Source of the DNA: a virus
IMG/VR virus record: IMGVR_UViG_3300005525_000091
Coordinates: 1 to 26,728 of that record
Direction: 5' to 3' (one strand)
DNA: 26,728 nucleotides
Positions 4,581 through 9,347 of this stretch are shown piece by piece (position 1 is the stretch's first letter; the number at the start of each line of letters is the position of its first letter). The notes under the pieces are model-generated. The model saw nothing but the letters and a program-made list of their open reading frames with translations. It had not been told where the DNA came from and did no database searches. The translations under genes and the position numbers were made by a program.

Positions 4581-5012
4581 TTACGGGGTTTGCCCGGGTA
4601 CGGGCCAGATATACGGAAGATGGGGCGAGACGTCCCAGCCGAATTTTCCGTAGTGTTCGGGGTGCTTACGTAGCAGATTGGATTGGTGGCTGCGATGGAA
4701 GCGGACGTTGCCAATCCAGTCTGGAAGATGTATCGGGTGTTGCGCATTGGCGTCTAGGAACTCGCGAAACTTCACCCCAATGTGATCTCGATAGTTCCGC
4801 CGCGTCCACTCGTCACAGCAGGCGAGTCCGTAGGTTGCCAGCGCCAAGGCGTGTCCTCGCCACATTCGAGTCGCAGGGTGATTCGCCCATCCGCCTCCGT
4901 AAAAGAGAGCTTGAAGGAGTTGGTAGGCTTCGACTCGCTGCTTGCCGAGGCGGCGATAATCGAGGCAGCGGGCGGACTCGGCGAAGTCGGGGTAGGGGAG
5001 GAAGGTTTGCAT
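4581..5012 (-). CDS. MSMEG_6728/Pyr_excise-family protein (pyrimidine-dimer glycosylase-like)
   Basis: 143 residues. It matches the pattern of the MSMEG_6728 group of the pyrimidine-dimer DNA glycosylase family (T4 endonuclease V fold): MQTFLPYPDF at the N-terminus, CLDYRRLGKQRVEAYQLLQAL, NHPATRMWRGHALAL and DEWTRRNYRD. T4 endonuclease V uses an N-terminal Thr amine as nucleophile; here residue 2 is Gln, so the chemistry may differ. It would act on DNA in the cytoplasm. It is the last gene of the leftward operon. The SD is weak (AAGAGA), so translation may be coupled to the overlapping upstream gene. The first 241 nt lie within another ORF. Confidence 0.8.
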   Translation of the reverse strand: MQTFLPYPDFAESARCLDYRRLGKQRVEAYQLLQALFYGGGWANHPATRMWRGHALALATYGLACCDEWTRRNYRDHIGVKFREFLDANAQHPIHLPDWIGNVRFHRSHQSNLLRKHPEHYGKFGWDVSPHLPYIWPVPGQTP

Positions 5013-5390: not shown

Positions 5391-5690
5391 TCACTCTCTG
5401 GGTGAGCGATCCACCGTCGGCCAAGGGATCGGCGCGCCGCCTCTATCCTGATCAACGTAATTTCGGTCTGGCTCGGCGGCACTGTCGGCCTTGGCAAGCT
5501 CGATGTATTTCTCGAGGAAGTGCTGAGCTTTCTCAAGATCTTGGATACCATTTTTCTTTCTCCATCGCATCACATACTTCGTGATCTGACCTTGGAAGTA
5601 GTCAAGGTTGTGCTGCGCGACAATGTCCCAGTGCTCAATCGCAGAGCCCTTGTAGTGCGCGCCGCCGACTTGTTTTGAGTTTGCTGCCAT
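5391..5690 (-). CDS. DUF3310 family protein (SaV-like)
   Basis: 99 residues from the only usable ATG (5690). The DUF3310 signature is visible: VGGAHYKG...IEHWDIVAQHNLDYFQGQITKYVMRWRKKNGIQDLEKAQHFLEKYIEL, split here at GQITKYV for length; conserved features are the HY near the start, the W/Y-rich helix and the KY..R...K..QDL.KA core. The family is common in phages; older annotations call it a nucleotide kinase, but no P-loop is present, so biochemical function is unknown. It sits beside nucleotide-metabolism-type genes. The tail is acidic and Pro-rich (SAAEPDRNYVDQ). The SD is weak (AAAGGG). Confidence 0.8.
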   Translation of the reverse strand: MAANSKQVGGAHYKGSAIEHWDIVAQHNLDYFQGQITKYVMRWRKKNGIQDLEKAQHFLEKYIELAKADSAAEPDRNYVDQDRGGAPIPWPTVDRSPRE

Positions 5691-5769: not shown

Positions 5770-6231
5770 CTAGAAATCTCCGTCGTTGACTTGGAGGCAG
5801 TCGTATCCGAGGTTTCGCCACGCGCTAACGACCCTCTTGCGATCTTCGAGGACCAGTAGAATGCGGTCTTTGCCTCCAACGTGGTCAGCCCACGAAGGTT
5901 TGAGGATATGATCGTCTGTACGGTCTTGCAAGTCTCGCATCCGCAAGAAGTCGTATGGGACAGAGTGTTCTGCCAGCCACCGTCGTGTGACGGATTCGGT
6001 GGAGGCACACCGTCCAGTGAAGATAGCGATTCGGAAATAGGAGTCATGCAGTGAGCGAACAAGGCGAATGATCGCCGGGCGTGGTGCATCGCCACCACAA
6101 AGGCTGAAGTACTCATCCCACTTCCTTGTTCCGGGCGGGCCGGAGATCAGGTGGTTCCGGTGCTTGTCGCAGGCGAGGGTCCCGTCGAGGTCGACGATGA
6201 CCGTATCTTTCGTTGTACCCATTCCGAGCAT
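5770..6231 (-). CDS. HAD-superfamily phosphatase, T4 PseT 3'-phosphatase-like
   Basis: 153 residues from the ATG at 6231, preceded by GGAGG at 6-nt spacing (a TTG at 6243 lacks this). HAD motif I is VIVDLDGTLA (D14, D16), motif II IFTGR, and motif IV VLEDRKRVVSAWRNLG (Glu-Asp where Asp-Asp is usual). The ending CLQVNDGDF is typical of the phosphatase half of polynucleotide kinase/3'-phosphatases. The kinase half is absent. Substrate may be a 3'-phosphate end or a nucleotide; in this context (next to a thymidylate synthase homologue) a nucleotide-pool role such as dTMP removal is possible but speculative. The 5' end overlaps the preceding gene by 85 nt. Confidence 0.8.
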   Translation of the reverse strand: MLGMGTTKDTVIVDLDGTLACDKHRNHLISGPPGTRKWDEYFSLCGGDAPRPAIIRLVRSLHDSYFRIAIFTGRCASTESVTRRWLAEHSVPYDFLRMRDLQDRTDDHILKPSWADHVGGKDRILLVLEDRKRVVSAWRNLGYDCLQVNDGDF

Positions 6232-7166
6232 GCCATCCTCCAATCTGATGCCACAATCAGGTTTACGAACTTCATGCCATCTCCCTTCCGCTCCTTACGG
6301 TCCGCGTAGGCGCAGTGGATTGGCAGAACTACATTCATCATCCACGCGGTCTTGAAGTTGCCGCGCTGCTTCAGATACACGAACCGCTCGCAGTCATCCA
6401 GCAGATCCCGCCAGTTCTCTCCCTTCTCCAGTAGGGGGAGGGGCTTGACCTTCCCGGCCCGGTAGGGATCGTAGGCGCTGACCGTCTGCCACACTTCGTT
6501 GAAGTTCTCGAGGTTCTTGTAGACGTGTAGGTTGTTCGTGAACACCCGGTAGATGCCCACATCCTTCCCAAGCGCGAGCGCCACGAGCTCGTGGAGGTAG
6601 GTCATGTGAACGGCGTTAGCGCCGAGCATGCCCCACACGAGATCGTTCGAGCGGTTGATCACAGTCATGTGGAGCTTCTTGCCCACGATTCGGAACATGA
6701 TCGACGTGTTGCACGGAACGTCGGCGTGCTTCTCTAGGTCAGAGCTTGGATCCCACATAGAGATAACAGCCCGACGAGAAGCAGGATCTTGCTCCAAAAC
6801 GCCAACGACTCGTTCGATCTGATCCACACCGAAATGATCGCGCCAGCGATACCCGTAAGCACCATGAACAGTATCACTCCCAGGATCAGCATACTCGCGG
6901 TATCGTGCATTGTAGAATTCTAGGAAACGCACGTCGTTGCTTCCCGCGAACATCCACACCGTCTCCATCACATGGAAAAACGGGTTGGCGTTCCGCACGG
7001 GGTCGAACAATACCCGCTCGATTGGGTGTAAGATTTCCAGCATGACTGGCATGGCGGCAGACATCACCGGACCGTTCCGGCTCTGCTCTTCAATCGCCCA
7101 TACTCGCATCTTCCAGAAGGCTTCGCAGTAAGCCTCAGGAACATTGGTGCCCAGAATTACGTTCAT
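6147..7166 (-). CDS. Thymidylate synthase homologue (thymidylate synthase or dUMP/dCMP hydroxymethylase)
   Basis: 339 residues. Fold landmarks: ETVWMFAGSND (about 68-78, like ELLWFLxGxTN), HGAYGYRWR (101-109), SRRAVISMWDP (130-140), catalytic Cys in ADVPCNTSIMF (C152), and VINRSNDLVWGMLGANAVHM (169-188). It transfers a one-carbon unit from folate to C5 of a pyrimidine nucleotide. The RSND...GAN variant differs from cellular ThyA (RSxD...PFN) and is the kind often seen in phage proteins of this fold. Beside an alpha-GPT-PPlase-like and a glycosyltransferase gene, a hydroxymethylase making 5-hydroxymethyl-dUMP (or dCMP) is plausible. The C-terminal Ser/Thr-rich tail is encoded in the overlap with the HAD gene. 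ATGA overlap with the upstream gene. Confidence 0.85.
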   Translation of the reverse strand: MNVILGTNVPEAYCEAFWKMRVWAIEEQSRNGPVMSAAMPVMLEILHPIERVLFDPVRNANPFFHVMETVWMFAGSNDVRFLEFYNARYREYADPGSDTVHGAYGYRWRDHFGVDQIERVVGVLEQDPASRRAVISMWDPSSDLEKHADVPCNTSIMFRIVGKKLHMTVINRSNDLVWGMLGANAVHMTYLHELVALALGKDVGIYRVFTNNLHVYKNLENFNEVWQTVSAYDPYRAGKVKPLPLLEKGENWRDLLDDCERFVYLKQRGNFKTAWMMNVVLPIHCAYADRKERKGDGMKFVNLIVASDWRMACSEWVQRKIRSSSTSTGPSPATSTGTT

Positions 7167-7357
7167 TCTTTCTCTATCTCCTCGGCTATGTCAAGGAACG
7201 TTTTGGCGATGCGCGTTGCTCGCCGCTCAGCAATCTTCATGGTCGCAACCAGATTCGGATGTTTGCGCCTCGCTGACGCATCTTGCCAACTTCGGCGGAA
7301 TTTATTAGCCCGGGCTAGGAGCTGATCGGCAGCCCACCTATAATCATCAGCGTCCAT
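7163..7357 (-). CDS. Small basic helical protein, unknown function
   Basis: 64 residues from the ATG at 7357: MDADDYRWAADQLLARAN..., Arg/Lys-rich middle (SARRKHPNL, AERRATRIAK) and acidic end DIAEEIEKE. The start overlaps the end of the alpha-GPT-PPlase-like gene by 11 nt and the stop overlaps the next ATG (ATGA), so it is translated within the modification block. A much longer in-frame ORF (to 7627) is rejected as an antisense-type shadow inside the neighbouring gene. No family recognised; an accessory subunit is possible. Confidence 0.65.
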   Translation of the reverse strand: MDADDYRWAADQLLARANKFRRSWQDASARRKHPNLVATMKIAERRATRIAKTFLDIAEEIEKE

Positions 7358-8219
7358 TATAGCCCCGCTTGGACCGTCCGGTGCCGGTAAGGACTCGGCA
7401 GTATTTGTCAAACTCGCAAAGGCAGTTTTGGAGGTCTTGGTTGCAGATGATAGGAGTTCCGACAGGCCAGTTCTGATCGACGTACTCGCGTATGGTCTGG
7501 AAGTGGCGAGTGAAAGTACCCGGCGTGACATTTTCGGGCTTGCCGTAGTGGAACCACGAGGCTCCGCGGAGGCTGCCGGGCCCGTGGGCAACGAAGGTAT
7601 ATCGGTCTGGCGCGGTGTTGAGCTCATAGTTGCTGGTGTTCTTGAGATCCGCTATGATTTGGGCTGCGAGGAAGGAGCCGATACCATCCACAGTTTTGAG
7701 GATTTTGTAGGCAGCCTCCAACGTACCGGCTCCGCGCACCTGCGAACCAAGATTGCGGGCGTTCACGGTCTCCAGTACCTGATCTACAAGATAGTCGATC
7801 TTACTCATCGACTGCCCGTGGGTGCTGACGATGTACGCCCCACCCCAGATCTTACCCTGCTCAGCGAGGGCGTAGAGAATTTCCTTGATGTTATCGGGGG
7901 AGTGGTAGAAGATGTATCCGACTTTCCCCAAGGTGTCGGGCCAATTGATGAACCGAGAGAAGATGATGTTGTATTCGAAGTTCGGGTGCGCGTGTGCGAC
8001 CGAGTACATCTTTCGAATGTACTTGGTTACTTTGTCATTCTCTCGGTGAACGTTGCAGAAGTACGTACTCTGGAAAATAGGGTCTTCTGACCACGGCCTC
8101 GGCTTGCCGTCTTGCTTCCGCAGATGGATGAGATACCGCTCCTTGATCCAGTAGGTGAGGAGCTTGGGGTAGTCAAAATCAACCTGCGTTGTAAGCTCGC
8201 TTCCACTGGATACGGACAT
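7347..8219 (-). CDS. Alpha-GPT-PPlase/HMUDK helical-domain family protein (DNA hypermodification)
   Basis: 290 residues. The N-terminal signature RKQDGKPRPWSEDPIF (34-49) followed by STYFCNVHRENDKVT (51-65) is characteristic of the alpha-glutamyl/putrescinyl-thymine pyrophosphorylase group (also found as the helical domain of 5-hmdU DNA kinases). A helix-hairpin-helix is visible at about 174-193 (LKTVDGIGSFLAAQIIADLK), as in DNA glycosylases, and the end carries LCEFDKYCR. Members act on modified thymine in phage DNA. No P-loop kinase domain is fused here. Start: ATG 8219 with AGGAG at 7 nt, inside the last 41 nt of the glycosyltransferase gene. Function as a base-modifying enzyme is inferred from family and neighbours. 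Confidence 0.8.
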   Translation of the reverse strand: MSVSSGSELTTQVDFDYPKLLTYWIKERYLIHLRKQDGKPRPWSEDPIFQSTYFCNVHRENDKVTKYIRKMYSVAHAHPNFEYNIIFSRFINWPDTLGKVGYIFYHSPDNIKEILYALAEQGKIWGGAYIVSTHGQSMSKIDYLVDQVLETVNARNLGSQVRGAGTLEAAYKILKTVDGIGSFLAAQIIADLKNTSNYELNTAPDRYTFVAHGPGSLRGASWFHYGKPENVTPGTFTRHFQTIREYVDQNWPVGTPIICNQDLQNCLCEFDKYCRVLTGTGRSKRGYNGR

Positions 8220-8940
8220 CGGTGCGCTCCTGACCGCCCCATGCGGTCTTCGTTTGCTTGGTGACTACATCCACGAACTCGGGGTGTAGCTCTTTGAGTC
8301 GGTAAGCGGCGCGGGCCTGCTCCTCCATCGTACGGTAGGTGGAGCACCCGCCCGTCACGTTGGAACCCTTTTGGTCGTGAACAATCCAATTGATTTTGAC
8401 GTTCGTGTAGCCCTTGCGCAGAAGCTGAAGGGTCACATCGAAGTCTTCCATCAGGTGAATGCGGTCGAAGCGGACACCCTCTTGTTTGAGGATATCTGAG
8501 CGATAGCAGAGAACTCGCAGGAGGCGGGTGTTGTAGAGCATCCGGGCAATCTCCCGATTGCCGCCCTCCCGCGTACTGACCCCCACGTGAGCGTAACCCT
8601 TATCCAGTAGCCTCTCGATCTGTACAAACAGATCTTCAACCTCCTCAGGGGTCGAGTCGCGGAACTTGGAGGGGTCGTCTTCCCGGCGGGTGGCGAAGCG
8701 CAGATCGTCATCCAACATGACTACCGCCGGATCCTCTAGGCAATCTAGCGAGTAGTCGAGGATGTACTGGCGGGTCGGGCCGATGCCCTTGACGTGGGAG
8801 GGCTGCGGAATCCACGCTGCCCCGTCGGGGATCCCCATGCGCTCTGGGGATATAAAGATGACTTGCTGACGCAGCTTAGGCGGAAGATGCCTGTAGGTGA
8901 GCTGCTCTACCCGATTGAGGGTAGGGATGAAGATATGCAC
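8179..8940 (-). CDS. TET-associated-type glycosyltransferase (TAGT family), DNA base glycosylation candidate
   Basis: 253 residues starting with GTG at 8940 (GGAG 7 nt upstream). GT-A features: N-terminal IFIPTLNR, nucleotide/metal-binding VVMLDDDLRF (D77-D79), and the TAGT-like block HLMEDFDVTLQLLRKGY (162-178), GGCSTYRT (197-204) and WKRAY near the C-terminus. TAGT enzymes are thought to put sugars on hydroxymethylated bases in phage DNA; most were noted beside TET/JBP oxygenases. No such oxygenase is in this window; instead the gene is joined to an alpha-GPT-PPlase-like gene and a thymidylate-synthase-fold gene, so the acceptor could be a 5-hydroxymethylpyrimidine made at nucleotide level. 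Confidence 0.8.
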   Translation of the reverse strand: MHIFIPTLNRVEQLTYRHLPPKLRQQVIFISPERMGIPDGAAWIPQPSHVKGIGPTRQYILDYSLDCLEDPAVVMLDDDLRFATRREDDPSKFRDSTPEEVEDLFVQIERLLDKGYAHVGVSTREGGNREIARMLYNTRLLRVLCYRSDILKQEGVRFDRIHLMEDFDVTLQLLRKGYTNVKINWIVHDQKGSNVTGGCSTYRTMEEQARAAYRLKELHPEFVDVVTKQTKTAWGGQERTDVRIQWKRAYNAG

Positions 8941-9026: not shown

Positions 9027-9347
9027 TTACTCGCCGATCTTGATCAGGCCGTGGCCCACGTCCCAGGCGAGGTCCGCGTAGGTGACGCCCTTCGCGAGCG
9101 CCTCACCCACGGTCGCGGAGCCGAAGTAACCCTCGAACCGCTCGCGGCTCTTGCCGCGCTTCGGGTTGCCCTCGACGAGCACCGTGACCTTGGCGTCGTT
9201 CGGGTACAGCGTGGCGAAGCGGCTCACGCGCGGGGCCTTCGGCTCCTTGGGGGCCTTCGGCTCCTTGGGGGCCTTCTCGGCCTTCGGCGCCTTGGGAGCC
9301 TTCGGCGCCTTGGCGGGCGGGGTCAGATCCAGCGTCTCGTCGGTCAT
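9027..9347 (-). CDS. Lys/Pro/Ala-repeat protein with small C-terminal domain (DNA-binding candidate)
   Basis: 106 residues, start ATG 9347 with AAGGAG at 7 nt. Residues about 10-40 are repeats of (K)AP and KEP (AKAPKAPKAPKAEKAPKEP, 19 residues), like the tails of histone H1-like bacterial proteins. The C-terminal 60 residues (TVLVEGNPKRGKSRERFEGY...GEALAKGVTYADLAWDVGHG) resemble a small domain seen in phage proteins with NPKR..S..RF. It could bind or compact phage DNA or act in nucleoid takeover. It is the first gene after a promoter/operator-like sequence. Confidence 0.7.
   Translation of the reverse strand: MTDETLDLTPPAKAPKAPKAPKAEKAPKEPKAPKEPKAPRVSRFATLYPNDAKVTVLVEGNPKRGKSRERFEGYFGSATVGEALAKGVTYADLAWDVGHGLIKIGE

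Follow-up and report, generated by a model that had tools for sequence, protein, structure and literature searches.

The DNA examined here, called the window, is the entire linear IMG/VR record IMGVR_UViG_3300005525_000091 (26,728 bases), and its positions 5770-8940 carry a tightly packed block of genes for a TAGT-type glycosyltransferase, a helical protein of the HMUDK_hel family (HEL), a thymidylate synthase (TS) homologue and a HAD phosphatase (Table 1). These identities had been read from the sequence without database searches; all four genes now score above their Pfam cut-offs, including with the PF20691 and PF18723 profiles that the original prediction had proposed as a check, and the PHROGs are concordant. 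In this block TAGT occupies a position that in related phages belongs to a DNA-base kinase or a different glycosyltransferase, always with the same HEL next to it. That such a cassette is a new version of thymidine hypermodification is well supported. We consider it probable, with real room for doubt, that a DNA glycosyltransferase here takes the place of a 5-hydroxymethyldeoxyuridine (5-hmdU) DNA kinase, such that 5-hmdUMP would be synthesised and built into DNA, where HEL would recognise it and TAGT would O-glycosylate it; the chemical steps, the sugar and the HEL role are what we infer from the genes.

Table 1. Genes of the block and its constant neighbours in the window.
Feature	Position	Strand	Details
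TAGT glycosyltransferase	8179-8940	-	253 aa, GTG start; PF20691 51.3 bits (cut-off 27.5); phrog_842 E 7e-43
HEL (HMUDK_hel, 'aGPT-Pplase clade 1')	7347-8219	-	290 aa; PF18723 135.6 bits (cut-off 25)
Small open reading frame between HEL and synthase	7163-7357	-	64 aa; copies in near-identical viruses only
Thymidylate synthase homologue	6147-7166	-	339 aa; PF00303 83.6 bits (cut-off 24.3); best PHROG phrog_5131, E 6e-96
HAD phosphatase, PNKP/PseT type, without kinase half	5770 to ~6231	-	~153 aa; PF25109 91.5 bits (cut-off 27.6)
DUF3310 protein, constant downstream neighbour	5391-5690	-	99 aa; PF11753
Lys/Pro-rich small protein, constant neighbour upstream of slot	9027-9347	-	phmmer relatives

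Successive genes overlap, TAGT and HEL by 41 nt, HEL and the small open reading frame by 11 nt, that frame and the synthase by 4 nt (ATGA) and the synthase and phosphatase by about 85 nt, and Shine-Dalgarno-like purine-rich stretches lie upstream of most starts. Single-protein scans for close relatives brought up nothing beyond copies of this virus and a single relative at 50%, and alignment queries were used instead. These drew 80 HEL and 80 TAGT loci from IMG/VR, on partly shared contigs, from which profiles were built. Most loci keep one order: PolA, the Lys/Pro-rich protein, the decorating enzyme, HEL, synthase, an HD or HAD phosphatase and DUF3310. Counting copies of the same contigs, relatives of the DUF3310 protein occur in 145 loci and phmmer relatives of the Lys/Pro-rich protein in 86.

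The sample drawn with the HEL query, which was not selected for TAGT, contains 57 loci with TAGT, 10 with a P-loop kinase, 12 with neither and none with both. The idea that those 12 HELs are truly partnerless was rejected, as most have other presumed glycosyltransferases or lie on contigs cut at the slot: L030, L041 and L064 encode GT-B-like proteins with sub-cut-off GT4 Pfam matches or homology to such proteins, L059, L062, L084, L088, L092 and L094 carry, in or beside the slot, members of a different family of comparable length, two contigs end at the slot, and in L085 a radical SAM gene is the sole neighbour. Removal of HELs at least 80% identical to one another left 91 non-redundant loci, where the partner is TAGT in 66, the kinase in 12, one of two other presumed glycosyltransferases in 8 and unassigned in 5, with no locus holding two kinds; partners are always on the same strand as HEL and mostly within 300 bp. 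HEL, synthase and an adjoining decorating enzyme occur together in 86 non-redundant HEL loci. Three of the five unassigned loci belong to cultured phages that match phrog_800, a broad kinase profile; in Lucky3 the match adjoins HEL, and in Montesquieu and nACB2 it lies at another place in the genome. The GTB1 and GTB2 profiles of other presumed glycosyltransferases matched no PDB sequence; GTB1 has GT4 Pfam matches below cut-off, and GTB2, with no Pfam or PHROG match, is a presumed glycosyltransferase labelled by position and length alone. An independent scan of GTDB again found TS and HEL with the kinase (often together with ADDT), with TAGT or with other transferases, and one locus without TS that has TAGT and a weak GTB1 match together. 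Fusions of TAGT or kinase with HEL were absent from the fetched loci. Radical SAM/SPASM genes lie in or near the decorating slot in L075, L085, L091, L092, L101, L142, L144, L183, L187 and L194, which hints at further sugar or base modification.

A carefully built tree of 86 HELs implies 15 or more changes of partner; its well-supported branches by themselves require nine for TAGT and six for the kinase. The contigs L072 and L075 are alike on both sides of the slot, with 76% identical DNA along the 2.6 kb that run from HEL to DUF3310 and 72% along 213 bp upstream; between the matching flanks L072 carries the kinase and L075 carries TAGT and a radical SAM gene. L064 and L083 show the same swap pattern, with GT-B versus TAGT. 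Is the gene combination then unusual, as the original prediction had it? More than 60 non-redundant loci carry it, and PMC9599517 already reports Pelagiphages with TS, aG/PT-PPlase1, a deoxynucleotidase and a TAGT-type transferase, so the combination itself is not new. The literature searched gave no account of slot exclusivity or repeated exchange, of kinase and TET absence in whole records, of the dUMP assignment or of a partner-independent HEL with a helix-hairpin-helix (HhH) fold, although an earlier mention of kinase/glycosyltransferase exchange is possible.

Profile searches found no TET/JBP, 5-hmdU kinase or ADDT gene in the window. Since the window is a fragment, that absence alone proves little, and relatives were therefore examined: PF18748 (kinase), PF18724 (ADDT) and PF12851 (TET) matched nothing in 33 contigs with TAGT and HEL (33-68 kb) or in the complete genome of the cultured Brevibacterium phage LuckyBarnes (NC_047851). 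Because PF18748 misses divergent kinases, as in L098 and Lucky3, the broader phrog_800 was also used; it had no match in 34 TAGT+HEL contigs or LuckyBarnes and was positive in 14 of 14 control genomes. Kinase and ADDT were detected in phage M6 by PF18748 and PF18724, and the kinase also in the kinase contigs. PF12851 initially matched nothing, and absence of TET is claimed only after L147 and L148 had provided a positive control. These two, the TAGT contigs that lack HEL and synthase, are the only ones with TET; within this sample, then, TAGT comes after one of two enzymes, a TET oxygenase or a hydroxymethylase working on the nucleotide. The lack of TET/JBP noticed in the original prediction is shared by these relatives, and the search for a kinase that it had suggested was likewise negative in them. 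The PF18748 kinases of M6-type phages are labelled 'terminase small subunit' in public records (NC_007809 41685-42248, phrog_800 and related RefSeq entries).

These searches bear on whether the system merely adds a sugar to the usual amino-acid hypermodification of the M6 type, its divergent kinase and tailoring genes lying outside the window. A fragment of only 26.7 kb leaves room for such genes, yet we regard this as the least probable of the readings considered: in the TAGT+HEL contigs the kinase is missing by both profiles, as it is from a complete genome, ADDT is missing too, and TAGT and kinase never occur at the same HEL locus.

The TS homologue of the window keeps Cys146, Arg166, Asp169, Asn177, His207 and Tyr209; Trp80 and the PVAI that ends ThyA are missing, as in its counterparts from M6 and SFP10. 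Loss of Trp80 and the C-terminus favours hydroxymethylation over methylation. Among TS homologues of these loci, LuckyBarnes included, Trp80 is absent and position 177 is Asn in 156 of 157. Residue 177 sets the substrate, with Asn selecting dUMP and Asp selecting dCMP (PMC8670742). From these residues the enzyme is presumed to be a dUMP hydroxymethylase. Three observations are the reasons for taking 5-hmdU as the modified pyrimidine: Asn177, the exchange of kinase and TAGT, and the relatives without a kinase. They favour the route raised in the original prediction, whereby a hydroxymethyl-pyrimidine made at nucleotide level would be glycosylated in DNA.

Could the base be cytosine instead, with the TS homologue acting as a dCMP hydroxymethylase and TAGT glycosylating 5-hydroxymethyldeoxycytidine as in T-even phages? 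TAGT belongs to the family of the T6-type beta-glucosyl-hydroxymethylcytosine (HMC)-alpha-glucosyltransferase (PMC13390438), and the LuckyBarnes announcement predicts a dCMP-hydroxymethylase (PMC6588365). Against this, the dCMP residue Asp is replaced by Asn in the window and in nearly all relatives, LuckyBarnes among them, and the same TS and HEL types stand beside the 5-hmdU kinase in M6, which makes the cytosine route improbable. We judge it very unlikely that the TS homologue makes plain dTMP and that TAGT acts on a non-DNA target, the linkage reflecting a general DNA-metabolism block. Polymerase and helicase genes do adjoin the block, and Cys146, the catalytic residue, is intact together with those that bind dUMP. 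The homologue, like those of M6 and SFP10, has nevertheless lost Trp80 and the C-terminus, which an ordinary TS requires to form the methyl group; a DNA-base kinase can occupy the slot in place of TAGT; and the PDB neighbours listed for HEL at Z >=5 are all nucleic-acid or nucleoside enzymes.

HEL was modelled with AlphaFold2 at a pLDDT of 94.4. Its full-length fold neighbours are a DUF2419/queuosine salvage enzyme (Z 10.8) and PUGT, the 5-PmdU glycinyltransferase of PaMx11 (8z2m; Z 10.8, root-mean-square deviation (rmsd) 4.0, 212 residues aligned), while HhH DNA glycosylases reach Z values of about 5.5-10 (best OGG 3knt at 9.8, EndoIII 2abk at 8.1), all within the range below about 13 where, by the comparison tool's own warning, scores can arise by chance for some helical folds. 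Every match at Z >=5 belongs to the HhH-GPD superfamily or DUF2419, and Foldseek alone returned no E below 0.001. With Foldseek weak and Z low, what carries the HhH assignment is the agreement among the listed matches together with the HhH motif; HEL is thus predicted to have an HhH DNA-glycosylase fold, close to the 5-PmdU glycinyltransferase.

The polar residues N56, R59, D62, R89, N92, Y129, D191, D205, GPG213-215, C268, E269 and K272 are identical in HELs that accompany the kinase, TAGT or other partners, and HEL would therefore do the same job in all of them. The simplest such job, which we presume, is recognition of 5-hmdU and base flipping. Stand-alone cellular HELs have most of these residues fixed as well, with D205 as the weaker case: it is kept in phage HELs and varies in cellular ones. 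As regards the catalytic Asp/Lys of base excision, Phe183 seems to lie at the position of the lyase Lys. The main rival on this point makes HEL a catalyst, a homologue of the ADDT/PUGT amino-acid transferases that would attach or swap a chemical group, either on 5-hmdU or on the base once glycosylated, with TAGT acting before or after. The resemblance to PUGT fits this idea, as do a weak HEL-ADDT alignment (E 0.14) running from the HhH to the LC motif and the roughly 15 residues that are invariant across partners and mostly shared with stand-alone cellular HELs. M6, however, has HEL in addition to ADDT, kinase, PLP and radical SAM enzymes, and we know of no step in the M6 pathway left over for HEL. 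The TAGT contigs have no ADDT, and a sugar makes a poor leaving group. A catalytic HEL is in our view rather unlikely, though a serious contender. A bolder generalization of the recognition role, which we offer as possible and stop short of calling probable, is that HEL serves as a general 5-hmdU selection and flipping module for interchangeable enzymes (P-loop kinase, GT-A TAGT and two other presumed glycosyltransferase families). There would consequently be a class of environmental phages with base-J-like glycosylated 5-hmdU made without TET/JBP, in which exchange of a single gene changes genome chemistry.

The TAGT model (AlphaFold2 pLDDT 95.6) has a GT-A fold, with neighbours such as GalNAc-T2 (Z 14.7, rmsd 3.8, 218 aligned), and D77-D78-D79, the DDD metal motif, is kept in 65 of 65 relatives; profile score, predicted fold and motif all place the protein in the TAGT family. 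Its presumed reaction is sugar transfer to 5-hydroxymethyl-dU in DNA. TAGT had been regarded in the original prediction as mainly a companion of TET/JBP oxygenases. T6-type phages carry it without TET, as a second glucosyltransferase (PMC13390438), so the Pfam name 'TET-associated' is not to be taken literally, and among the long TAGT contigs tested TET was present in just 2. LuckyBarnes has two adjoining TAGT genes (L003:11154-12765), a pair that perhaps fits a two-step (disaccharide) decoration.

Downstream of the synthase, an HD hydrolase is recognised in 46 loci, a HAD phosphatase in 19 and both in 2; the other loci, about 65, mostly have no gene-sized space between synthase and DUF3310. 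Two unrelated phosphatases alternating at one place suggest pool control by a nucleotidase, and PMC9599517 names the pelagiphage phosphatase a 5'-deoxynucleotidase. The HAD phosphatase is accordingly easier to picture as a nucleotidase, its presumed function, than as a DNA-end repair enzyme; the PseT-like gene originally predicted is indeed there, and the repair role is disfavoured by the HD hydrolase found in its place in many relatives. The small helical protein once counted as a member of the block fared less well. Matches to it are confined to near-identical copies of the same virus, for which reason it was rejected as a component and is probably not part of the modification system. Farther downstream, at 4581-5012 (-), lies a Pyr_excise gene (PF03013, a T4 endonuclease V-like pyrimidine dimer glycosylase), and the complete ctUhy936 likewise has a gene annotated as endonuclease V.

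The favoured sequence of events would begin with conversion of dUMP to 5-hydroxymethyl-dUMP by the TS homologue. Host or phage kinases would bring it to the triphosphate for incorporation by the phage PolA-type polymerase, with the HAD (elsewhere HD) phosphatase probably trimming the competing dTMP/dUMP pool. HEL, with its HhH-glycosylase fold, would then recognise and flip 5-hmdU in DNA, and TAGT would move a sugar from a nucleoside diphosphate sugar to the exposed hydroxymethyl. Base J is the glycosylated 5-hydroxymethyluracil of kinetoplastids, and the expected product, O-glycosyl-5-hydroxymethyl-dU, would be base-J-like and would shield the DNA from restriction.

Several points weigh against this scheme. 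The loss of Trp80 and the C-terminus suggests hydroxymethylation rather than methylation and is not proof of it; the window, like the IMG/VR contigs, is a fragment; and our literature search found no nucleoside analysis of any phage with TAGT and HEL. The complete ctUhy936 has TAGT and a hydroxymethylase and lacks HEL, so HEL is not strictly required for a TAGT route. The M6 kinase reportedly acts when purified (PMC6449724), and HEL may thus be dispensable for its partner's chemistry there too. HEL also occurs alone in many cellular genomes, and may therefore have a chemistry of its own rather than serve a partner. Such stand-alone HELs are found in GTDB bacteria and archaea, among them Haloferax, Halomarina, Bradyrhizobium and a nanohaloarchaeon (L184-L186, L189, L192, L195, L211, L215, L222 and others), with no recognised TS, kinase or glycosyltransferase nearby, a quick look at their neighbours being uninformative. 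An aGPT-Pplase domain, of unstated clade, is listed as a predicted defence domain by DefensePredictor (PMC13092281).

Should the scheme hold, glycosylated 5-hydroxymethyluracil would be widespread in phages by a route free of TET/JBP, and the helical protein, whose name comes from the kinase, would not be a kinase part but a base-handling partner common to the different enzymes. The natural swaps of kinase and glycosyltransferase supply matched enzyme pairs for probing the role of HEL, and the cassette could yield tools that glycosylate 5-hmdU in DNA.

Among known systems, the M6/PaMx11 type likewise holds TS/hydroxymethylase, HEL, HD hydrolase, DUF3310 and PolA genes in a single block, its hydroxymethylase being 39% identical to that of the window over 94% of the protein and its HEL 31%. 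Unlike there, TAGT replaces the kinase (PF18748) and ADDT (PF18724), and a glycoside is predicted in place of an amino-alkyl base. Measured against the M6 and ViI pathways, a dUMP-type hydroxymethylase homologue and HMUDK_hel are present, whereas 5-hmdU kinase and ADDT are absent from the window (a fragment), the TAGT+HEL contigs and LuckyBarnes. LuckyBarnes has TS, TAGT and HEL in a row, without kinase, ADDT or TET, and differs in its two TAGTs, its far longer TS and its distant HEL. The HTVC023P-type Pelagiphages share the gene set, and the available part of PMC9599517 contains no statement of kinase replacement and no analysis of exchange, fold or substrate residue. Phage systems that pair TET/JBP with TAGT also end with TAGT as the glycosyltransferase, but there the hydroxymethyl is made by oxidation in DNA, and no TET occurs in TAGT+HEL contigs. 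In T-even HMC glucosylation, by a dCMP hydroxymethylase and alpha-, beta- or TAGT-type transferases, the hydroxymethyl likewise arises at nucleotide level and the sugar is added in DNA; its enzyme is of the Asp177 cytosine type, in contrast to Asn177 in the window, and T-even phages lack HEL. By analogy, then, the cassette would follow the M6/ViI pathway as far as 5-hmdU in DNA and end in the manner of T-even glucosylation.

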